A stretch of DNA of 56,025 bases from assembly GCA_025353925.1 (NCBI GenBank), contig JANXNV010000173.1, positions 1 through 56,025 of the forward strand, read 5' to 3'. A program made the position numbers and the translations under genes. Of the stretch, positions 1,191 to 38,402 are shown piece after piece. A model generated the notes under the pieces. The model saw only the letters and a list, made by a program, of their open reading frames with translations, searched no databases and had not been told where the DNA came from. Each line of letters starts with the position of its first letter. Within the stretch, counting starts at the first letter, position 1. Origin of the DNA: Armatimonadota bacterium. Lineage in GTDB: Bacteria; Armatimonadota; Armatimonadia; Armatimonadales; Capsulimonadaceae.

Positions 1191-1226
1191 CCAGAATTGT
1201 TGTTCTAGGTCCCTGTGCATAAGTAA

Positions 1227-1301
1227 CCTAGGATTTCCCTCAGCCCCGGAGGGGCTTTCTCCGAATAGCCCGGCCTTTCAAGGCCGGGTCTAAATCCTAG
1301 G
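1227..1301. repeat. Nested palindromic element (outer stem enclosing two hairpins)
   Basis: CCTAGGATTT (1227-1236) pairs perfectly with AAATCCTAGG (1292-1301). Inside lie two further perfect hairpins: AGCCCC/GGGGCT with a GGA loop (1242-1256) and CCCGGCCTT/AAGGCCGGG with a 2-nt loop (1269-1288). As RNA or single-stranded DNA this folds into a three-way junction. The first inner hairpin followed by TTTCT may act as a weak terminator for the small-gene cluster. A REP-type or miniature mobile element is equally possible. Confidence 0.6.
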
Positions 1302-1383
1302 AAACATTGGCGCGAGTACTTACCAGCGTCGAGCATCTGACGCGCTATGCGGCTGCTCGGCATTGGAAGGGTTCTTGAGGGCC

Positions 1384-2929: not shown

Positions 2930-3826
2930 TTACAAATCGCGCCGCTGAAACAGCGTCAGCCCCAGAGCGAAAAACACGGCCATGTAGAGGAGAATATAGA
3001 GGAGATCCGCTTCCGAGGTCGCCGCAACAACTGCGGACTGGCTGGGATCGCGGCGGGCCAAGAAGAGGCTAAAATCAAAACCGGCACTGCCGACCGGGCC
3101 ATGCCCGATCCCGAGCATCCCCCCACCGTCGGCATCCAGTCCGCGCGAGATCCAGTGGTTCATCCGGCTCAGCGGGACCACATACCCGGTGATACGGCTC
3201 AATGTCTCCAGCAGGGGAATTTCCAGGATACGCGAAAGGATGTGCAGCAGGTCTTCGCCCAGTGCCACCCCGGCGGCGATCAGAGCGAGCGACGACGAGA
3301 GGGCGTAAGTCGCGAAAGTCGAAAAACACAGCGTCAGAGTCGTGAACAGCAGTGGAAACAAACCTGCCGCCGCAATCCCGCCCCAAATACGCGGATGGTA
3401 CGTCCCCGTTTGATGCCAGATCGAGCCGGCCAGCAGCAGCCCCCAGACCACGACACATATGGCGAGGAGAAGATTAATACCCAGCCATTTGCCGAGGTAG
3501 ATCGCGGTACGCGGAATGGGTTTCGGCACGATCACCGACAGCACACCACGGTCGATTTCCGATGTGATCGCCCCCGCGGACAGCGCGACCGCCAGGACTG
3601 CCCCGAAAAACTTGATCGTCCCGCAGCCGACCCAGGCAAAGATGCGGCCCATATTGTTCAGTGCCGTCGGCAGGTCTAAACCGACCACCAGGCCGATATG
3701 CAGGTGCAGCGGCAGGAATGCAAACCCGAGATAGAGCGTGGAAATGACCACCGCCGCCAGAAATACTCGCCGCCGGATGGCCTCTTTGATTGTCAGCCCC
3801 GCCAGTATCAGAATGCCGTGAATCAA
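2930..3826 (-). CDS. ABC-2 type transporter permease
   Basis: A 298-residue polytopic membrane protein with about six hydrophobic segments, beginning ILAGLTIKEAIRRRVFLA, which resembles NosY/ABC-2 permeases. The sequence AGAITSEIDRGVLSVIVPKP is a typical ABC-2 signature (mostly SxE...G....l...P). The start is a TTG that overlaps the stop of the upstream ATPase gene (TTGA), with GAGAGG placed 8 nt before it, so the two are translationally coupled. It should form the membrane part of an exporter with the ATPase at 3823-4761. The substrate cannot be told from sequence; drugs, lipids or copper-related cargo are all possible for the class. Confidence 0.85.
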   Translation of the reverse strand: MIHGILILAGLTIKEAIRRRVFLAAVVISTLYLGFAFLPLHLHIGLVVGLDLPTALNNMGRIFAWVGCGTIKFFGAVLAVALSAGAITSEIDRGVLSVIVPKPIPRTAIYLGKWLGINLLLAICVVVWGLLLAGSIWHQTGTYHPRIWGGIAAAGLFPLLFTTLTLCFSTFATYALSSSLALIAAGVALGEDLLHILSRILEIPLLETLSRITGYVVPLSRMNHWISRGLDADGGGMLGIGHGPVGSAGFDFSLFLARRDPSQSAVVAATSEADLLYILLYMAVFFALGLTLFQRRDL

Positions 3827-13451: not shown

Positions 13452-16400
13452 CTAGGTGAACAACGCTTCAATATCCGACCGCGTGAGCGACTTGAACAAG
13501 CCTGTCTCCGTGCCGATGAGCTGGCTGACTAAAGCCCGTTTGCGGTCCTGCAATTGCAGAATTTTTTCTTCCACCGAATCTCGGGCGATCAGCTTGTAGA
13601 CAAATACCGGCTTGTCCTGACCGATCCGGTGGGTCCGGTCCGTCGCCTGCATCTCGACCGCCGGGTTCCACCAGGGATCGACGTGGATTACGTAGTCCGC
13701 CGCCGTCAGGTTCAGGCCAACGCCCCCCGCTTTGAGGCTGATAAGGAAGAAGGGAATCGCCGGGTCATCCTGGAACGTATCCACCCGGTTCTGCCGGTCT
13801 TTCGTACTGCCATCCAAATAGCTGTAAGGAATGCCGCGAGCATCCAGTGCCTCCCGAATAATCTTCAGCATCTGCACGAACTGCGAGAAGACAAGGGCTT
13901 TATGGCCCTCGGCCCGAAGCGTTTCCAGCGTCTCAATCAGCATATCGAACTTGCCGGAGCCGGCCTTAGTCAGCGGCTCGACCAGCCTCGGATGGTTGCT
14001 GATCTGGCGCAGCCGCAGCAGCCCTTCGAGTATCTTCATGCGAGCATCATTAATGCCCTCTTTCTCGGTCTCCGCATCCATGATGCCCAGAATCTGCGCC
14101 CGGTACTGGTCACGCATCTTGTCGTAGAGTTTTCTTTGCGGCGGCTCCATCTCCGTGTAAATCAGCCGCTCGGTGCGTGGCGGCAGCTCCGTCGCGACCT
14201 GGTCTTTCGTGCGCCGCAGAATAAATGGATGCACCATGCGGCGCAGGAACGCCGCCGCCATTTCGTCCTGATGCCGCTCGATCGGACCGGCGAATTCGCC
14301 GCGAAACGTTTCCAGGGTGCCTAGCAGGCCGGGATTGAGAAACGAAAACTGCGACCACAGCTCCAGTGTCGAGTTCTCCACCGGAGTTCCCGTCAAAGTC
14401 AGCCGATGATCGGAATTTAGCAGCCGTGCAGCTTTGGCGGACTGTGACACGGGGTTTTTGATCGCCTGGGCTTCATCCAAAACGACGTAGTGGAAGCGGT
14501 GCTGCCGCAGCATCTCAATATCGCGGAGAAGAATACCGTAGGTGGTCAGGACCAGATCGTACTCATCGAACTGCTTCAAGTCTTTGGCCCGCGTTGCGTG
14601 AGCATGGTTCAGCAGACGCAGATTGGGCGTGAACTTTTCGGATTCACGCTCCCAGTTAAAGATCAGTGACCGGGGCAGCACCAGCAGAGTCGCAGCTTTC
14701 GCCTCATGGCTTTCGGAGAGCGACTGCAGAAACGCCAAGCACTGGATTGTCTTGCCCGTCCCCATATCATCGGCCAGGCAGCCGCCGAAGCGGTATTCAT
14801 GCAGGAAATGCAGCCAGTCGTAGCCCGCCTTCTGGTAGGGCCGCAGCTCCCCGTGCAGACCGGTCGGCAGGGCATGCGGCTTAATCTCTTTAAACTCGCG
14901 GAGCTGACGCAGACGGTTCTGGAACTCTTCATCCGCCTGTACCCGCTCGCCTTCGCTCAGGAGCTGATCCAGCAGCGTGAGCTGATGCCCGGCGAGCCGC
15001 AGGCCCGTCTCACTGTCTTCCGCCATTGCGAACAGGTACCGATACTTTTCCACCCACTCATCAGGAATCGCCCCAATGGAGCCGTCCGCGAGCTTCAGGT
15101 ACCGCTCTTTGCGGCGCACGGCTTTGCGTATCTCTTTCAGCGACACCTGAGTCTCGCCGAACTCGACCACGGCATCCACGTCGAACCAGTCAATACCCGA
15201 CGAGACCTGAAACGAGATCTTCGGCTGGCTGCGATTGACCCGGGCCGACGCCAGCTCGCGCTCACCATAGATCTCAAAACCCGCTTCGGTCAATTGGGGA
15301 ACCTGTTTGAGCAGAAAGTCCACGACATCCGTCCGCGCACGCAGCACGAACTGGTCCGGCTCGTCGCCGCGCTTAAGGCCGAAGTCGGAGACCCGGCTCC
15401 AAATCTCCTGCTCCGTCTCCGGGCGACGGGTGATACGCACGAGAGTCATCGTCTCCGGCTTCCGCAGAAGGCTGGTCATCGGCAGAGACTTTTCGTATGG
15501 CAGGTCGAAGTCGCCGTAGCCGAAACGCAGGCTGACACGCATCTCCCCGCCCTCCTCACCGAGATAGAGGCGCGGACAGGGAGCCGCATCGGTCAGCTCA
15601 TCCCAAGCGAGCGTATGCCCCGTAACGGCGACTTTCTCCGCCAGTGGCAGCAGGTATTTGTCGAGAAACTTACTCGTCTCCGCCGCAGGAATAGAGAGGT
15701 TGGGATTCTCTAGGAGCGTCTTGACTACTTCGCCGGAGTCTTCGACCTGGAAGATGGTCCGGTCCGAGAGCAGCCAGAGCGGGTCCGCAATCAGTATCTG
15801 TGATTTCTCCGGCTGCAGGGAGAACGTTGCCCCCCCAACCTGTACCGTCCCTTGCAGCTCGAAGCCGCCGTTGACTTCGTGCATATCCAGCGACGGCTTA
15901 CCGGTCTCCCCGGCCACATACAGCAGGGTTTTCAACGGATCGTTTTCCGTCCCCCGAAAGACCGCTCCTCCCGCCAGCAGCGGCAGCAATGCTTTCACAT
16001 CCGTTGACCGCTCGTAGTAATACGAATACGTGTTCTCAAAGGCACTGAGAAGCGAAATTAAAGTCGCCCGCTCTCCGCCGAACGCCAATGCGAACCGCCG
16101 GGGATCACCGAGGCTTCGAACCGCCTTGACCTGATCGGAGAGCCGTTGGGACTGAATGTGCTGCGCCAGAGCCTCCGGATCCTGCAGCATCTCTTCGGTA
16201 AAGTGACTGATCGGGAGGGCGTAGGGATACCCACCCCAGGCAGCGGAGCGAGACTGCAGGCTGAAAAAGAGGATGAAACGCCCCGGCACGGTGGTGCGGT
16301 TCGGCGTTTTGAGTGCCTGGTTAAGAACTGTCTCCCAGGTGACCGGCGGGTTCTGTATCAGGTGGTTGCGGAGTGCCAGAGCCGCTGCGATCTTATGCTT

Positions 16401-16646
16401 GCAGATCATGTCCGCGTCGCCCTCGGCTACCGGGCAGTCGCATGCCGCGACCACACTGCCATCGCTGACTAGCCGGAACCGAAGTTGGTACAACCGACTC
16501 CCCTGTACCGTGACTTCCGCATACTGCTGCTCAATCCGCCGAATCCGCGCCCGCCCCTGCAAAAAATAGCTTCGCCCCCGCTGCGCCGTCTCCGTATCCG
16601 AACGTGCGATAAACCGGGGAATATCCAAACTCTCCACTGTCAACAT
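13452..16646 (-). CDS. SWIM zinc finger SNF2-family ATPase/helicase
   Basis: A protein of about 1064 residues. A SWIM zinc finger lies near residues 65-95 (VAACDCPV ... CKHKIAAAL). A long middle region resembles the SNF2 helicase-associated part. The ATPase has [11 protein letters not shown] (Walker A), LDEAQAIKN (motif II), LTGTPVENS (III), and [20 protein letters not shown] with TDRTHRIGQ (V-VI). Bacterial SWIM-SNF2 proteins are double-stranded DNA translocases thought to remodel protein-DNA or RNA-polymerase complexes. The ATG at 16646 is preferred; an in-frame TTG at 16658 directly abuts the AAAGG. It sits 22 bp upstream of the MDR gene. Confidence 0.9.
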   Translation of the reverse strand: [1064 protein letters not shown]

Positions 16647-16691
16647 GAACTGCGGCAACCTTTCAGGCCAGATCTAATGCGGCGCGAATGC

Positions 16692-19256: not shown

Positions 19257-19348
19257 GTTTACTCTCCTCTGACTTTTTCCCTGGGGTTTCCATTCGAGAT
19301 TGGAAATGAGTTCTAGAGAAAGAGTATACCACAGAAGAGCATTCGGCT

Positions 19349-26331: not shown

Positions 26332-26874
26332 CTAGTCGCGGAGTGACTTTCTCCGGGTAGACCGGCATTTGAATGCCGGCGCCGAACTCGTCTGCGCCCG
26401 GTACGTTTGCAGCAGCAATTGATACGTCGGATCGGCTTTGGCGGCTTCCCACTTCGCCCGGAAGATCGCCGCCGACTCGGCTTTTTCGGCATCCACCACA
26501 AAAGGCAGAACGGTGCGCCCATGCGCTCCGCTCTGCCCTTTTTTGTCCTCGGGCACCGGCCCGTCATATTTTTTGCCGCCTTTGTGGTTTGCGTAGCGAC
26601 GCGCCCGGGTCATACCCATTTGCAGGAACTTGCGGGCCATGTCCATGCCGACGAAGTCCCCCGCCGCCCCGTATGCCAGAAACAGATTCCAAATGACCTC
26701 GGACGATTCCCGCGCCGCCTCGGGAGTCGCAAATCGCCAGTGCGGCAGGATTTCACCTTTGTAAGGCTGCACCAGCAGAACCCCCTGCTCCCCCACCCCC
26801 ACCCGGTACAGCTCGGGGTGCGCCCGGAAGTCCGTGTTCTGAAAGTCGAGCGTGTAATCGAACTTCGCGCTCAA
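26332..26874 (-). CDS. DUF4385 family protein
   Basis: This 180-residue protein matches DUF4385 as I remember it: FRAHPELYRVGVGEQGVLL, LPHWRFATPEAARES, DFVGMDMARKFLQMGMTRA, and RRYANHKGGKKYDGPVPED followed by GQSGAHGR. It is soluble, basic and of unknown function. The start is a TTG with no competing ATG. The TTG overlaps what would have been the ancestral stop of the upstream gene (see the duplication at 26878-26921). The C-terminal tail after residue 160 is basic and poorly ordered, close to the tandem repeat. Confidence 0.8.
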   Translation of the reverse strand: MSAKFDYTLDFQNTDFRAHPELYRVGVGEQGVLLVQPYKGEILPHWRFATPEAARESSEVIWNLFLAYGAAGDFVGMDMARKFLQMGMTRARRYANHKGGKKYDGPVPEDKKGQSGAHGRTVLPFVVDAEKAESAAIFRAKWEAAKADPTYQLLLQTYRAQTSSAPAFKCRSTRRKSLRD

Positions 26875-32560: not shown

Positions 32561-32592
32561 ATGTGGTAAACTATTTCCAGCAACTTCGTAAG
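32561..32592 (+). repeat. Left direct repeat of island
   Basis: The sequence begins ATGTGGTAAACTATTTCCAG, continues CAACTTCGTAAG, and matches 36188-36219 at 30 of 32 positions. Weaker similarity continues to CAATCACTTTATGT (32608-32621), matching CAGTCACTTTATGT before and across the helicase start (36254-36267). One frame reads VVNYFQQLRKFHSPDQSLYV and stays open to a stop at 32659-32661. Confidence 0.85.
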
Positions 32593-32706
32593 TTCCATAG
32601 CCCTGATCAATCACTTTATGTTCTAATTGCCTCGTTACACCTACAGAATATATTTGACTAACTACTCAACCTACCACAAATTGCAAATTATGAGTCTGAT
32701 TAAAAT

Positions 32707-33807
32707 ATGAGTAACAGCCCATCTAGCATTGATTTAGTACCTATGCAAGTTTTGCGTTTTGACCCGCAGAACCCACGCCTGCCTACTTCGATTAAGGGCA
32801 GTGATGAGCAGGCTGTTCTGCTCTACCTGTTAAAAGATGCGTCGCTCACTGAGCTGATGGGTTCGATTGGAGAACAAGGCTACTTTGCGGGTGAACCACT
32901 TCTCATATGTCCTAACCCACAAGCAAAAGACGAATATTTAGTTATTGAGGGAAATCGTCGCTTTGCATCAGTCAAATTATTGAGCAACCCCGAACTTGCG
33001 CCAATCAATAAGTCATCGGTCCAACTCGTAAGCACAGACTCTAAATTTAAGCCAACAGAACTTCCATGTGTTATATATCCAAGCCGCGAGTCGATTCTTA
33101 GTCACCTCAGTTACCGCCATATTACCGGTGTAAAAGCGTGGAACCCACTGCAGAAGGCTAGATATCTTAGTCAGCTTAGACAAGGTGTCCTAGAGCAGCC
33201 ATTGGATGTACAGTTCCGTAAATTGGCTAAGACCATTGGCACAAAATCTGACTATGTCGCGAGGCTCCTTGCTGGCAATGCTGTTTACAATAGAATAGAA
33301 GAAAACAATTTCTTTGACATTCCGAGACTCAATGAAGATACTTTTAATTTTGCTGTTTTAACAACAGCTTTTACATACACTAACATTAGAACTTTCATAG
33401 GGTTGGACAGCGACGACCCCACAACTCCTGATTTAAAAATGCCCGCATTGAGGGAACTGACTCAGTGGATATTTGAAAAAAATGATCAAAATATGACGAG
33501 ACTAGGCGAATCGCGCAACCTTAAATTTCTTAGCAAGATAGTGGCGAACGAAGATGCACTCAAAGCTTTTCAAAGTGGGATGCCTCTTGTTGACGCCAAA
33601 GACCTAACGGAAGCACCAACAGAGATTTTTCAAAGTGCTCTTCTTCAGGCCAAGGACAAAATGATACTTGCGAGAGGAACTCTGCACCTAATAGCACTTC
33701 CGACAATTTCAGATGATGAAGTCTTAGGCGAAGTTATTCTAATCGCTCGCGATATGCGAAGGATCGTGACCTCGAAAATCACAGAGGCAGAGGATATTAT
33801 CGCATAG
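32707..33807 (+). CDS. ParB/sulfiredoxin-fold domain protein of a restriction-type module
   Basis: A 366-residue protein. The N-terminal part has VPMQVLRFDPQNPRLP and later YLVIEGNRRFASVKLL (about residues 78-93), the strand and GxRR box of ParB N-terminal/Srx-fold proteins. An LTELMGSIGEQGYFAGEPLLI stretch between them is also typical of ParB boxes. A helical middle (LRQGVLEQPLDVQFRKLAKTI, then TKSDYVARLLAG) resembles the ParB helix-turn-helix. Such proteins bind nucleotides, or act as nucleases or DNA-sliding factors. It is cotranscribed with the nuclease-like gene 11 bp downstream. Codon use is A+T-rich, unlike neighbours. Confidence 0.75.
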   Translation: MSNSPSSIDLVPMQVLRFDPQNPRLPTSIKGSDEQAVLLYLLKDASLTELMGSIGEQGYFAGEPLLICPNPQAKDEYLVIEGNRRFASVKLLSNPELAPINKSSVQLVSTDSKFKPTELPCVIYPSRESILSHLSYRHITGVKAWNPLQKARYLSQLRQGVLEQPLDVQFRKLAKTIGTKSDYVARLLAGNAVYNRIEENNFFDIPRLNEDTFNFAVLTTAFTYTNIRTFIGLDSDDPTTPDLKMPALRELTQWIFEKNDQNMTRLGESRNLKFLSKIVANEDALKAFQSGMPLVDAKDLTEAPTEIFQSALLQAKDKMILARGTLHLIALPTISDDEVLGEVILIARDMRRIVTSKITEAEDIIA

Positions 33808-33818
33808 GGAGTTAAATT

Positions 33819-34817
33819 TTGTCACCTCTTTCTCAGTTTGGCAGTTTGCCAAAATCGTACTATGATGTTCATGCTTGGGCTGATTATTTAGAAATCCTTT
33901 GCTTAGTCAGCGTCGATCAAAATTTGTCAAAAGGCGATATATTGGATCGAATAAGAACTATCAAAGATGATGTGTCTATGGATGGAGATGATAGTGAAGA
34001 CATAAGCATTGAGGATCAAGAAGAAATAAGCGGTTTGGGTCCTGCTCAGATGAACGACAAATGGGTCACGAGGGTGAATGACTGGTTTGAGCATTTGAGC
34101 TATCGCTCGTGTTCTTTCTCCAATGCTTATCCATTTTCATTATCTGGTGCTGAAGACGTCATTGAAGTAACAACTACTCTCAGTGCCGAGAAGGAACTTT
34201 ATATTTTCCTACTCCTGTGTGCGAACTTACGTTACTGCAAAAGCTCTATATCTGTCCTGACGCGAACTTTTGAGCAACTAAGTGCTGAGGTATTGAAATC
34301 TTGTTTGGCTGATACAGCTGAGGTTCATATTTTTGGGACCAGTCAGACAGAGGAGGGTCGCTACACAGGAAACTTGTGGAAAAACATTAATCAGCTCGCT
34401 CAAGATTTAGGAGAAAAACTCAGTATTGAAGAAAAGGATCTGCCAAAACCGAATTATGGGGACGGCGGTTTGGATATTGTGGCTTGGATCCCATCCGGTG
34501 ACTCAAATTCGCACCGCATCGTGATATTCGGACAATGTGCATGTACGGAAGAATGGGAAACGAAACAATATACCGCTACCGCCAGGAAATGGCGGCAATT
34601 CATGTCTTTGAGTGCAGGAGTGAGCACCGTTGTTTTTATTCCACACTCGCTCAGACAAGCAAATGGTGGTTGGCATGATAAGGCGAATATAGCAACTGTT
34701 ATGATGGATCGTTCAAGGTTTATGTTTTTGCTGAAAAACAAGCTAAATAAATTTGAGACAAGTCTAAGCAAGAAAATCGTAGAGCAAGTTATAGCACAGC
34801 GAGAAGATATTTTTTAG
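33819..34817 (+). CDS. Putative restriction endonuclease, PD-(D/E)XK-like
   Basis: A 332-residue protein starting at a TTG with GGGAG 7 nt upstream. The nuclease-like core is near residues 212-245: NYGDGGLDIVAWIP, then RIVIFGQCACTEEWETKQ. GDGGLDIV supplies the metal-binding Asp. The second strand has Gln-Cys-Ala where Glu-x-Lys is usual, with a Lys further on, so the active site is a variant. The N-terminal 200 residues are helical and acidic and not recognised. Position between a ParB-fold gene and a convergent cytosine methylase supports a restriction role. Confidence 0.65.
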   Translation: MSPLSQFGSLPKSYYDVHAWADYLEILCLVSVDQNLSKGDILDRIRTIKDDVSMDGDDSEDISIEDQEEISGLGPAQMNDKWVTRVNDWFEHLSYRSCSFSNAYPFSLSGAEDVIEVTTTLSAEKELYIFLLLCANLRYCKSSISVLTRTFEQLSAEVLKSCLADTAEVHIFGTSQTEEGRYTGNLWKNINQLAQDLGEKLSIEEKDLPKPNYGDGGLDIVAWIPSGDSNSHRIVIFGQCACTEEWETKQYTATARKWRQFMSLSAGVSTVVFIPHSLRQANGGWHDKANIATVMMDRSRFMFLLKNKLNKFETSLSKKIVEQVIAQREDIF

Positions 34818-34866
34818 TGTAGTCCCACACCTTATACCCTTGAAAGGCTTGGTGCCTTCAGGCTGA

Positions 34867-36009
34867 TTAAATATTTTGTTTTGCCCTCTTTGCAGACTGT
34901 ATAGCTTTTAAATGAGTGTCAAAATTTTGTTCAGAAACATATTGCGGTGAAATAGTGGATTTCAAGCCAACTCCTGATGTCAGGCCTTGAACAATGTGTT
35001 CCATCAGAAGTGGCGGTACTGCATTTCCTACTTGCCAGTACTTTGCCTCAACAGATCCTTCTGGTTCAATCTCAACAGGAAATGTTTGAAGTACGGCACA
35101 TTCTCTCCAGGATAAGCGGCGAGGCAGTTCTAAAACAGGCAGATTGGGGACATTAGCGCGGTGTTCGTACTCTTGTGTAAATTCCCATTGCTGTTTCGAT
35201 CCATTACGCCAATCAGATGAAATCATGTGCATGGTGGGGGATGCTGGATGAAGTGTCACATGTCGCCAGTTAGACACAACCGTATATGCTGGGTCACCCC
35301 ATGCACGCTTACGATTCCTTGACATAAACCACCATGAAAATGGATCCTTCTCAGGATGATAGTATTCCCCAGTACAATCGAGCGGCAAGTCTATGAGTGC
35401 TTCGCCGTGTGAAGCATATGGTGTCTGCAGTTTACTCAGTGGCCCATGCGTAGGCTTCGGAAACCAATAATATGCACCGATGTCTCTGCGTACACCTACG
35501 AGGAATATCCTTTTTCTATCCGCAGGCACTCCATAGTCTTTTGCGTTCAAAGATAAGAATGAAACCAAATATCCTTGACCTGCTTCACTGAATGCCTTGA
35601 TTTGCTCATATAAGTAACGACCATTTTCAAGTAATTGCATACCGGCCACATTTTCAACGACAAAGTATCGTGGATTTGTTTGTACTAAACAACGTAGGAA
35701 TTCTTTATATAGACTAGTTCTATCGTCACTTTCTGGTAGTCGGGGGCCACCCATTGTAAAGCTTTGACATGGGTAGCAGCCAATTAGTATATCGCAAGAT
35801 GGAAAACTTGGTATCTCCCTAATGTTTTTAGTGTTAACCACTGTTTCATCATTTGCAATAATGCTCTTAAATGCCTCATAAGTCTTTGTTGCAGGCAAAA
35901 AACAATCGTTAGAAAATATTACGTCAACGCCAGCCCGCTTTGCGCCAAGATCACTCCCGCCACAACCACTAAATAACGACACCCCCACTAACCTGTTCCT
36001 AGCTGTCAC
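34867..36009 (-). CDS. DNA (cytosine-5) methyltransferase
   Basis: Conserved m5C motifs are all present: I LFSGCGGSDLG, IV GCYPCQSFTMGG with catalytic Cys, VI VVENVAG, VIII ADRKRIFLVGVR, IX RECAVLQTFP and X QVGNAVPP. The stretch of about 130 residues between VIII and IX is the target-recognition region; the site cannot be read from it. The GTG at 36009 is preferred because AAGGA lies 6 nt upstream; a GTG five codons earlier (36024) has no ribosome-binding site. It is convergent with the nuclease gene. It would protect host DNA from the cognate enzyme. Confidence 0.93.
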   Translation of the reverse strand: MTARNRLVGVSLFSGCGGSDLGAKRAGVDVIFSNDCFLPATKTYEAFKSIIANDETVVNTKNIREIPSFPSCDILIGCYPCQSFTMGGPRLPESDDRTSLYKEFLRCLVQTNPRYFVVENVAGMQLLENGRYLYEQIKAFSEAGQGYLVSFLSLNAKDYGVPADRKRIFLVGVRRDIGAYYWFPKPTHGPLSKLQTPYASHGEALIDLPLDCTGEYYHPEKDPFSWWFMSRNRKRAWGDPAYTVVSNWRHVTLHPASPTMHMISSDWRNGSKQQWEFTQEYEHRANVPNLPVLELPRRLSWRECAVLQTFPVEIEPEGSVEAKYWQVGNAVPPLLMEHIVQGLTSGVGLKSTISPQYVSEQNFDTHLKAIQSAKRAKQNI

Positions 36010-36046
36010 ACATTTTTCCTTCACACGAAATTTGTTAAGTCTATAT

Positions 36047-36081
36047 ATTATACTGTAATGCGCCTGAATGTCAGGCGCATT
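36047..36081 (-). promoter_or_regulatory. Methylase promoter overlapped by a perfect palindrome
   Basis: On the minus strand CTGACA (36074-36069) lies 16 bp from TATAAT (36052-36047), a good sigma70 promoter for the methylase. AATGCGCCTGA (36057-36067) and TCAGGCGCATT (36071-36081) form a perfect 11-bp inverted repeat with a 3-bp centre that covers the -35 box and much of the spacer. It is placed as an operator for autoregulation. The arms contain GCGC, which could itself be methylated. Confidence 0.7.
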
Positions 36082-36153
36082 TTCGGGTTCAATTTAAGAA
36101 TGTTTGTCAATCGAAGGGTATTCGACTATCTGTGAATTAAAAGGAGGAAATTT

Positions 36154-36237
36154 GTGCAAGTTACAAATTGCAGTCCTTGCATACAAGATGTGGTAAACTA
36201 TTTCCAGCGATTTCGTAAGCCCCGCACCCCAAGTTAG
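36154..36237 (+). CDS. Candidate 27-residue small ORF across the right repeat
   Basis: A perfect Shine-Dalgarno sequence AAGGAGG (36141-36147) lies 6 nt before a GTG at 36154. The frame encodes QVTNCSPCIQDVVNYFQRF then RKPRTPS and stops at 36235-36237. Its VVNYFQRFRK part is encoded by the direct repeat and parallels VVNYFQQLRK on the left side, so the repeat may be a piece of a coding sequence. It could be a leader peptide for the helicase gene or a decayed gene end. Confidence 0.35.
   Translation: MQVTNCSPCIQDVVNYFQRFRKPRTPS
36188..36219 (+). repeat. Right direct repeat of island
   Basis: This copy reads ATGTGGTAAACTATTTCCAG then CGATTTCGTAAG and differs from the left copy only at two bases (36209 and 36211). 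It ends 44 bp before the UvrD-like start codon. Confidence 0.85.
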
Positions 36238-36263
36238 TTATCTTTTCCTAAGTCAGTCACTTT

Positions 36264-38402
36264 ATGTCCCAAGCCACCCTCGAAGCCATTACCGAAGACC
36301 TGCACCGCAGCCGGTCCGCCACACTCTTGCCTGCACTGGAAGCGGGCCTGAATACCGAGCAGATACAGGCCTTTTCCCATGATGATGGCCCCTGCCTGGT
36401 CCTGGCCGGGGCGGGCAGCGGCAAAACCACCGTGCTGACCCGCCGGGTCGCGCGGCTTCTCGCCCGGGGCACTGATCCGCAGCGGATATTTGTCGCCACG
36501 TTTACCAAGAAAGCCGCCGAGGAAATGGGCAGCCGCCTTGCTGCCCTGCTGGGCGAAGGCGGTGAAGCGATTGTCGAGAAGATGTGGATCGGCACATTCC
36601 ACTCGCACTGCCTGCGGATCCTCAAGTTCGAGTGGGCGCATCTCTTTGGCAAAGCAGGCTACTTTCAGCTCGCCGACGAAAACTGGCAAATTCGGGTCGC
36701 AAAAGCCATTCTGGGTGACAAGGACTGGATGGCACGCGGGCTGCCCTCGCCTCCCTTCGGCCTGAATGTGGCCTATGACCCCAAAGGAGCACTCTCCGCC
36801 GTCTCCGCCGTCAAGAACCGTGGATTTCAGGTGGAAGAAGCCGAAGCCGCCTTCCGTGCCCACGAGCCGCTCTGGGCGGATCCCAGTATCCAGATACTCG
36901 CCAAGTTCTGGCGGTGCTACGAACAGGCGAAGCAGGCGAAATTCGATATCCTCGCGAAGAAGCCGTCCCGGCGTTTAGACTTTGATGACCTGCTGATCGA
37001 AGCCCTGAAGCTGCTTCAGGAGCAGCCTGCCATCCGGCAGAAGTATCAGCAGTTCTTCCAGTATCTTTGCATCGACGAGACCCAGGATACGTCGTCAGTG
37101 CAGTGGGAGATCGCCCGGCTGCTTTCCGCCGCGCATTCCAATATCTTCATCGTCGGGGATGTCGGCCAGGCCGTCTACGGCTTTCGCGGCTGCTCCCCCG
37201 AGGCAACCGTCGGGCAGTTTGGGGCGGCCTATCCCAGTGGAACAGTGATCCGGCTGCCGACCAACTACCGCTCGACGGCCACCATTGTGCGGGTCGCCAA
37301 TGAGCTGATCGAGTGCTCAGGAATCGACGCGAAGTACCGGCTGGAAATGGCTTCGGTGCACCCTGAGGGCGAACCGCTGTCTCAGCACGAACACGAGCAT
37401 GCCGACGCCGAAGCACTCTTTGTGGCCGAGTCCCTGAAGCAGATCCAGGAAACCGGGGCCGCTCTGCGAGACTGCGTGGTGCTCTTCCGCACGAATGCTT
37501 ACTCCCGGGCTTTGGAGGAAGCGTTCGTCAAAAACGGTGTCCCCTACGTCCTGCAAGGCGCGATGGGCTTTTATGCCCGCCGGGAAGTGCGTGACCTCGT
37601 AGCGTTTTTGCAGCTCTCCGTCGAGCGCGACAGCCCTGCCGCCGATGAGGCCGTCAAGCGGGTGCTGAATGTCCCCTCCAAGTCCTTCGGCAAGCCGACG
37701 CATTTTCTGGGCGGGGCCTTTATCGCCGCGCTGGAAACGCAGGCTGCCCTCAAAAATCAGTCGCTGTACAAGACGCTGGCAACGGGCCAATTTAAGACCT
37801 GGCAGGGGCTGGCCGCCAAAGACTTCCGGGACATGGTGCGGGATATCGCGCTCGCCGGGGACTCTGCCGAAGCCCGTCTGCGGAAGGCCCGGGATATGGG
37901 CTACGATGACTGGCTGCTGCGCGAAGAAGGCCATGTGGAAGACGAGGGCAACTCCCGCCTCGATAACCTCGAAGAGCTATGCACCGCCGCCGCCGCTTTC
38001 CCCACTCCTCTGGACTTCGTGGCGTTTGTGGCGGCCCAGAACAAGCCGATTGGCGAGGAAGAAGCGGGCGATGCCGTCGAGATGATGACCATCCACCGGG
38101 CGAAAGGCCTGGAATGGCCCGTCGTGTTCGTCGTCGGTTTTGCGTTCGGCATGCTGCCCCATCACCGCTCCCTGCGCTGGCTGGACGAGGAAAAAACCCA
38201 GCTTGCCGGGGACAGCATCGAGGAAGAGCGGCGGCTGGCCTATGTGGCGATTACCCGTGCCAAAGAGCGTGTCTATCTATCGTGGCCCTTGCAGCACCAA
38301 ACGCGGGCATTGACCCGTTCGCCGTTCCTTAAAGAGATGCCGTCGCTGCCAGAGATGGAAGCTGCCCCACTCGGAACTGTCTCGAAAGAGGCGAGTTCTT
38401 GA
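36264..38402 (+). CDS. UvrD/PcrA-like superfamily 1A DNA helicase
   Basis: A 712-residue helicase with the Q-motif LNTEQIQA, Walker A AGAGSGKTTVLTRR, Ia FVATFTKKAAEEM, II LCIDETQDTS (DETQ form), III VGDVGQAVYGFRG, IV LPTNYRSTATIV, V TIHRAKGLEWPVVFVVG and VI RRLAYVAITRAKERV. It unwinds DNA 3' to 5' in repair or recombination. It is slightly shorter than typical UvrD and lacks the usual C-terminal Tudor-like tail. The N-terminal 28 residues are unusual and there is no clear ribosome-binding site for the ATG, which lies in the region similar to the left repeat. Confidence 0.93.
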   Translation: MSQATLEAITEDLHRSRSATLLPALEAGLNTEQIQAFSHDDGPCLVLAGAGSGKTTVLTRRVARLLARGTDPQRIFVATFTKKAAEEMGSRLAALLGEGGEAIVEKMWIGTFHSHCLRILKFEWAHLFGKAGYFQLADENWQIRVAKAILGDKDWMARGLPSPPFGLNVAYDPKGALSAVSAVKNRGFQVEEAEAAFRAHEPLWADPSIQILAKFWRCYEQAKQAKFDILAKKPSRRLDFDDLLIEALKLLQEQPAIRQKYQQFFQYLCIDETQDTSSVQWEIARLLSAAHSNIFIVGDVGQAVYGFRGCSPEATVGQFGAAYPSGTVIRLPTNYRSTATIVRVANELIECSGIDAKYRLEMASVHPEGEPLSQHEHEHADAEALFVAESLKQIQETGAALRDCVVLFRTNAYSRALEEAFVKNGVPYVLQGAMGFYARREVRDLVAFLQLSVERDSPAADEAVKRVLNVPSKSFGKPTHFLGGAFIAALETQAALKNQSLYKTLATGQFKTWQGLAAKDFRDMVRDIALAGDSAEARLRKARDMGYDDWLLREEGHVEDEGNSRLDNLEELCTAAAAFPTPLDFVAFVAAQNKPIGEEEAGDAVEMMTIHRAKGLEWPVVFVVGFAFGMLPHHRSLRWLDEEKTQLAGDSIEEERRLAYVAITRAKERVYLSWPLQHQTRALTRSPFLKEMPSLPEMEAAPLGTVSKEASS

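Follow-up and report, generated by a model that had tools for sequence, protein, structure and literature searches.

The genome of an Armatimonadota bacterium (Capsulimonadaceae) contains a three-gene cassette that is probably a complete type II-like restriction-modification (R-M) system, acquired horizontally, in which the restriction half is a pair of proteins, one ParB-like and the other nuclease-like. The parts have recognizable identities and folds, their linkage is constant in the relatives that we have collected, a modification gene is nearly always present, and the nuclease gene can be found broken by an insertion sequence where the methylase gene is intact. The window analyzed here comprises positions 1 to 56,025 of contig JANXNV010000173.1.

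Results

Organization and composition of the cassette

The cassette (32707-36024) contains three intact open reading frames, encoding a ParB-like protein, a nuclease-like protein and a C5 methylase (Table 1). An 11-nt gap separates the first two genes, with the sequence AGGGAG upstream of the TTG start of the nuclease-like gene, and the nuclease-like and methylase genes converge across a gap of 49 nt. The G+C content of the cassette is 0.429, compared with a mean for the contig of 0.591 (SD 0.017, minimum 0.556; 228 other segments of the same length), placing it about 9 SD from its flanks (43% versus 59%). Similarly, GC3 is 0.35-0.40 in the cassette genes versus 0.67-0.75 in the neighboring genes. 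The foreign composition noted in a preliminary description of this DNA is thus borne out by both measures.

The neighbors of the cassette are genes for a PNPOx-like protein, a GH38 mannosidase, a UvrD-like helicase, an aminotransferase and glutamate synthase, and analysis of the neighboring proteins with PADLOC and Pfam found mostly housekeeping functions. Since the three genes stand alone among such neighbors, they form a single cassette and not the defence island that had been suggested. Elsewhere in the window (13452-16658) an SNF2-type helicase with an SNF2_assoc domain matches the DpdE and ZorD models; it is probably an ordinary SNF2 helicase.

Table 1. Features of the cassette and of the ParB-like protein
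Feature	Position	Strand	Description
Left repeat	32561..32626	+	apparent degenerate duplicate of the helicase leader, running through the start-codon context (ATG TTC TAA); upstream of the ParB-like gene
ParB-like gene	32707-33807	+	366 aa
Nuclease-like gene	33819-34817	+	332 aa, TTG start
C5 methylase gene	34867-36024	-	385 aa
Inverted repeat AATGCGCCTGA-ATG-TCAGGCGCATT	36057..36081	.	perfect 11-nt arms, 3-nt center
Right repeat	36188..36272	+	promoter/leader native to the UvrD-like helicase gene, with its first codons
ParB/Srx nucleotide-binding fold	about residues 8-130		NPR 22-24, EGNRR 81-85
HTH-type middle region	about residues 147-200		ParB-like protein
Helical C-terminal part	about residues 210-366		ParB-like protein

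Origin of the flanking repeats

The three genes are enclosed by a 32-bp direct repeat (32561-32592 and 36188-36219), identical at 30/32 positions; when extended to 43 nt, the two copies still agree at 84%. Random windows of 100-120 nt from the contig gave no 32-mer match better than 21/32, so the repeat that had been reported is not a product of chance. From the first base of its right copy it is 76 nt to the start codon of the UvrD-like helicase gene (36264-38402). When G001, a genome from the same genus with a helicase 96% identical, is compared with the right flank of the window, homology starts at 36188, exactly where the right repeat begins, and the right repeat aligns better with this genome than with the left repeat. 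Since the homology begins at this point, the right copy is the native helicase leader.

The two copies look like a duplicated promoter and leader of the host, not like the ends of a mobile element. The possibility that they are the ends of an insertion sequence was rejected; the sequence is that of the helicase leader, and neither an integrase ORF nor a tRNA adjoins the repeat. As the left copy lies upstream of the ParB-like gene, the ParB operon may be transcribed from this copy of a promoter of the host. Both genomes compared hold a few further loose matches to the core of the repeat. These fit the reading of the core as a promoter element, which may be of a type belonging to this genus. Loose copies of the TGTGGTAAACT-TTTCC element are located at 19317-19333 of the window and at G000 C256:2786-2806.

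It had been proposed that the empty site be sought in related genomes. The nuclease gene is indeed absent from G001, but there the left flank (to 32533) is found on another contig with a different gene after it, and the gene in front of the helicase is an unrelated one. With the flanks not contiguous, there is no clean empty site in this genome; the same candidate was rejected for a second genome (G002), where the two flanks are also apart. A rearrangement in either lineage would fit these observations, as would import of the cassette by recombination in the helicase leader. Exact repeats of 16-24 nt flank relatives of the cassette in 3/14 chromosomal loci. Two further segments of the window (1214-1322 and 26339-26382) both match one place in contig C40 of G001 (L034 about 3715-3823) at 82-86%, and are a possible dispersed repeat.

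The proteins of the cassette

The AF2 model of the ParB-like protein has a pLDDT of 93.3. Its best Foldseek matches are KorB, C. crescentus ParB and Noc, with E values from 2e-6 to 1e-4 over the nucleotide-binding and HTH domains, and the profile of the protein matches PDB 4umk at 4e-5. The protein also matches phrog_3694 (PHROGs, unknown function) at 3.5e-90, and its match to Pfam ParB_N falls under the Pfam cut-off. Residues D19, N22-P23-R24, E63, E81-G82-N83-x-R85, H138, G141, W145 and A151 do not vary in the alignments, and the EGNRR motif is near-invariant among the relatives. The predicted structure combines the ParB/Srx fold with the nucleotide-pocket motif, i.e., the two features of a ParB-CTPase fold.

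The model of the nuclease-like protein is of similar quality (AF2, pLDDT 92.9). A chain of MspJI is the only PDB match that Foldseek returned with E <0.001 (4e-4), followed by more MspJI chains, and this best match is weak, with a TM-score of 0.26. The profile of the nuclease matches the MspJI sequence at the motif (E 0.03). The protein matches phrog_3984 (PHROGs, unknown function) at 4.3e-59; it had no match in Pfam, NCBIfam, PADLOC or a single-sequence search of the PDB, and a fold search of BFVD gave nothing significant. In the 87 distinct nuclease sequences collected below, D219 and R298 never vary, 85/87 have Q239 and likewise 85/87 have K249, and D22, E25, R96, D297 and R300 are near-invariant. 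The +2 position, where QxK enzymes have lysine, is Gly or Ala in 84/87 sequences. A single nuclease (L071, QCK) has lysine at the usual QxK place, and it does not have K249. K249 is probably the migrated lysine of a variant PD-(D/E)XK site, and the predicted protein has a restriction-enzyme fold with D219, Q239 and K249 as residues of catalytic type. The preliminary description of a ParB/Srx-fold protein and a variant PD-(D/E)XK protein in one operon, with a convergent C5 methylase, therefore holds, and the predicted structures back the guesses made for both folds.

The methylase matches Pfam PF00145 (7.8e-53), with the motifs PCQ (C86) and ENV (E124), and the nearest solved structure in the PDB is that of M.HaeIII (3e-44). 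The inverted repeat upstream of its gene overlaps the -35-like hexamer of the promoter (CTGACA/TATAAT, 36074-36047, minus strand), and might act as an operator or a terminator.

Recurrence of the three genes

Relatives were gathered from phages, plasmids, IMG/VR, GTDB genomes and the host phylum, and near-copies were collapsed to leave 87 distinct nuclease loci, in P2-like phages (Wphi and D14A included) and bacteria of several phyla. The ParB-like gene lies immediately upstream of the nuclease gene in 84/87 loci; of the three exceptions, one has a truncated nuclease and the other two begin at a contig edge or close to it. A modification gene is found near the pair in 84/87 loci, and 60/87 have the layout of the window, in which a C5 methylase gene no more than 120 bp from the nuclease gene converges with it. 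As the nuclease or ParB served as bait, the methylase alone counts as independent evidence of co-occurrence. In the reverse search, with the methylase, 10 of the 11 strongly matching phage records hold the trio and the eleventh does not. Homologues of the ParB-like and nuclease-like genes thus do occur together and with modification genes; had they never done so, the preliminary description would have been refuted.

The trio is present in phage Wphi (gp98, gp96, mth), in Pseudomonas phage D14A and in EcoM-12474. Among 5426 complete E. coli genomes, 139 match, and 103 of these carry the whole Wphi-type trio; one of the other 36 was inspected, and in it the same methylase adjoins a ParB-nuclease pair that has diverged, in a P2-like prophage, between the portal and replication genes. 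In P2-like prophages the trio is located between the portal and replication-endonuclease genes, an interval known as an anti-phage hotspot (PMC9122126). The literature and family libraries searched do not describe the trio, which may be an unnamed cassette in the supplementary tables of that study. In the phylum of the host, distant relatives were found in 5 other genomes of 291, four with an N4/N6-type methylase and one with a C5 methylase. In L186 (MT835579, 7025-11864) two ParB-nuclease pairs are arranged face to face, with a Z1-type gene and a gene for a C5 methylase alongside.

Exchange of modification partners

The partner of the pair is a C5 methylase, in any orientation, in 71 of the 87 loci. 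Five loci have dnd genes (DndC/D/E or DndG/H, confirmed by PADLOC), four an N4/N6-type methylase (Pfam N6_N4_Mtase in the one tested), two a Z1-type system, one a D12-class N6A methylase and one a type IIG-like enzyme together with a C5 methylase. No modification partner was found in three loci: L060, which is cut at the contig start; L028, with no annotated modification gene within about 15 kb on each side; and L071, with none in its 12 kb. A pair of this kind is that of the Persicobacter plasmid pPP2 (L203 15974-18043), with no annotated modification gene for about 15 kb either side. The Persicobacter pair and L071 suggest that the methylase may at times be dispensable, or act in trans. The pair in L203 sits among small hypothetical genes resembling an immunity-gene array.

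A maximum-likelihood tree (quick search) gave 7 partner changes among the loci with a partner, an approximate count given that several branches are long. Supported branches of the tree account for no fewer than five changes of the C5 label, and the Dnd-linked nucleases, five in all, fall into a single supported group (98).

For 77 distinct C5 loci (2926 pairs), ParB and nuclease identities are correlated with r = 0.93, compared with r = 0.40 for nuclease and methylase. The methylases of Wphi and EcoM-12474 are 98% identical, while their nucleases are about 25-26% and their ParB proteins 32% identical. Methylases at least 80% identical accompany nucleases less than 45% identical in 154/325 locus pairs, which are not independent of each other. 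The conclusion that emerges from the two correlations is that ParB and nuclease behave as one unit. They travel together, with the methylase being exchanged or homogenized separately. Either both lineages of the pair read one site, or the methylase holds the choice of site.

In E. coli strains JXZ9A32M and 98206 the nuclease gene is interrupted by an IS5-family element, and the ParB and methylase genes are intact. Likewise in L088 (on the same phage contig as L128) the nuclease is broken and the methylase intact. No broken methylase was seen beside an intact nuclease in this small, non-exhaustive sample, as would fit a nuclease that is harmful without the mark. Such a handful of cases is too few to prove asymmetric loss.

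Discussion

The best explanation of these results is an R-M system with a restriction half of two proteins. The convergent C5 methylase would mark the host DNA at the target, and thereby protect the host. The ParB-like protein and the variant PD-(D/E)XK protein would act as a unit that cuts DNA without the mark; the former, which may be a clamp or a specificity factor, would bind DNA via its HTH region, and might load or gate the nuclease with the help of CTP or another NTP. The predicted ParB/Noc/KorB fold of the first protein and the MspJI-like fold predicted for the second support this explanation. Against it stand the weakness of the Foldseek match to MspJI, the Gly or Ala in place of the usual QxK lysine, and the pairs that have no modification gene. 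The cassette is thus likely to be an R-M system with such a restriction half, which is new to the sources searched; its gating by ParB is a mechanism that we infer.

A broader proposal, which we make only tentatively, is that the pair is a general restriction module bound to no single mark, whether C5, N6A or N4/N6-type methylation or phosphorothioation. The modification partner would then provide the choice of sequence, and a nucleotide-gated ParB clamp would bring the nuclease to unmarked DNA.

It is unlikely that the pair attacks foreign-modified DNA in the manner of a type IV enzyme, or causes cell death on loss of the mark, with the adjacent methylase merely competing for sites or making the mark that is sensed. 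The nearest fold to that of the nuclease is MspJI, and MspJI cuts 5mC DNA. The match nevertheless is one to the nuclease motif of MspJI, and no match to its 5mC-reading domain was observed. ParB-superfamily (DUF262) proteins include GmrSD, a type IV enzyme (PMC12373910), and DndI, a phosphorothioate-sensing nickase (PMC11662687), the pair adjoins dndH in two Dnd loci, and the Persicobacter pair has no modification gene nearby; yet if the pair cut marked DNA, a host carrying the mark of the adjacent gene would itself be attacked, and modification genes of several chemistries accompany the pair in 84/87 loci.

It is very improbable that the ParB-like protein serves chiefly to control expression or segregation, as a regulator or a partition-like accessory, with the nuclease restricting alone: its fold and HTH are like those of the transcriptional repressor KorB and the inverted repeat overlaps the methylase promoter, but no ParA-like gene, the partner in ParABS, adjoins the ParB gene of the window, and the tight co-divergence (r = 0.93) and an operon order kept across phyla and with different partners fit a complex better.

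Chromosome segregation is the setting in which nucleotide switches of the ParB type are best known. The recurrent system of ParB, nuclease and modification gene makes a role for a ParB clamp in immunity directly testable, in phage Wphi and E. coli W. The swaps of partner and reassortment of the methylase raise the question of how the restriction half keeps matching its mark, and touch a long-standing one in the R-M field, namely how such systems evolve without killing their hosts.

Comparison with known systems

The two-protein R-M system that we favor resembles type II systems of the HaeIII type in the linkage of a nuclease-like gene to a C5 methylase, with M.HaeIII as the nearest structure to the latter. 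It differs in that the restriction half comprises two genes, one of them ParB-like, that the nuclease motif is variant, and that the pair has relatives accompanied by a different modification system instead of this methylase. The methylase matches the DruM2 model of Druantia (PADLOC, 5e-127), but neither the DruE helicase nor another core gene is among the matches listed for eight neighboring proteins.

PD-Lambda-5 (Vassallo et al., 2022; PMC9519451) also has a methylase partner and is found in temperate phages. The N-terminal ~200 amino acids of PD-Lambda-5_A match the ParB-like protein (hhalign 99.3%; N-terminal match 1.2e-22), but its C-terminal part is unrelated to the nuclease (hhalign 0.3%) and there is no full-length match, whereas PD-Lambda-5_B belongs to another methylase family, Dam-like by annotation, and not to the C5 family. 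With only the ParB N-terminus in common, membership of PD-Lambda-5 was rejected.

MspJI provides the best fold and profile matches of the nuclease, at the D...Q motif; the TM-score is low, the lysine has moved in the nuclease of the window, and that nuclease has its own linked methylase. The DUF262 and HNH proteins GmrSD, DndI and SspE share a ParB-superfamily fold in modification-related defence, but the cassette has EGNRR instead of DGQQR and a separate PD-(D/E)XK protein, and its proteins have no DUF262 or HNH match. A survey of ParB-CTPase folds describes fusions to methylases and HNH nucleases, and the binding of CTP, ATP or GTP; the trio does not appear in the available part of that survey (PMC12704722).

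In having dnd genes as neighbors, five relatives of the pair resemble Dnd systems with alternative nucleases (PMC10853773), although no dnd gene lies beside the pair in the window. The nucleases named in the portion of that survey at hand (HKD, SRA-HNH, HARE-REase, NERD and URI) do not include the pair. According to the proposal made there, Dnd is served by alternative nucleases, and in related systems C5 methylases can take the place of phosphorothioation; this is the closest published idea that we have found.
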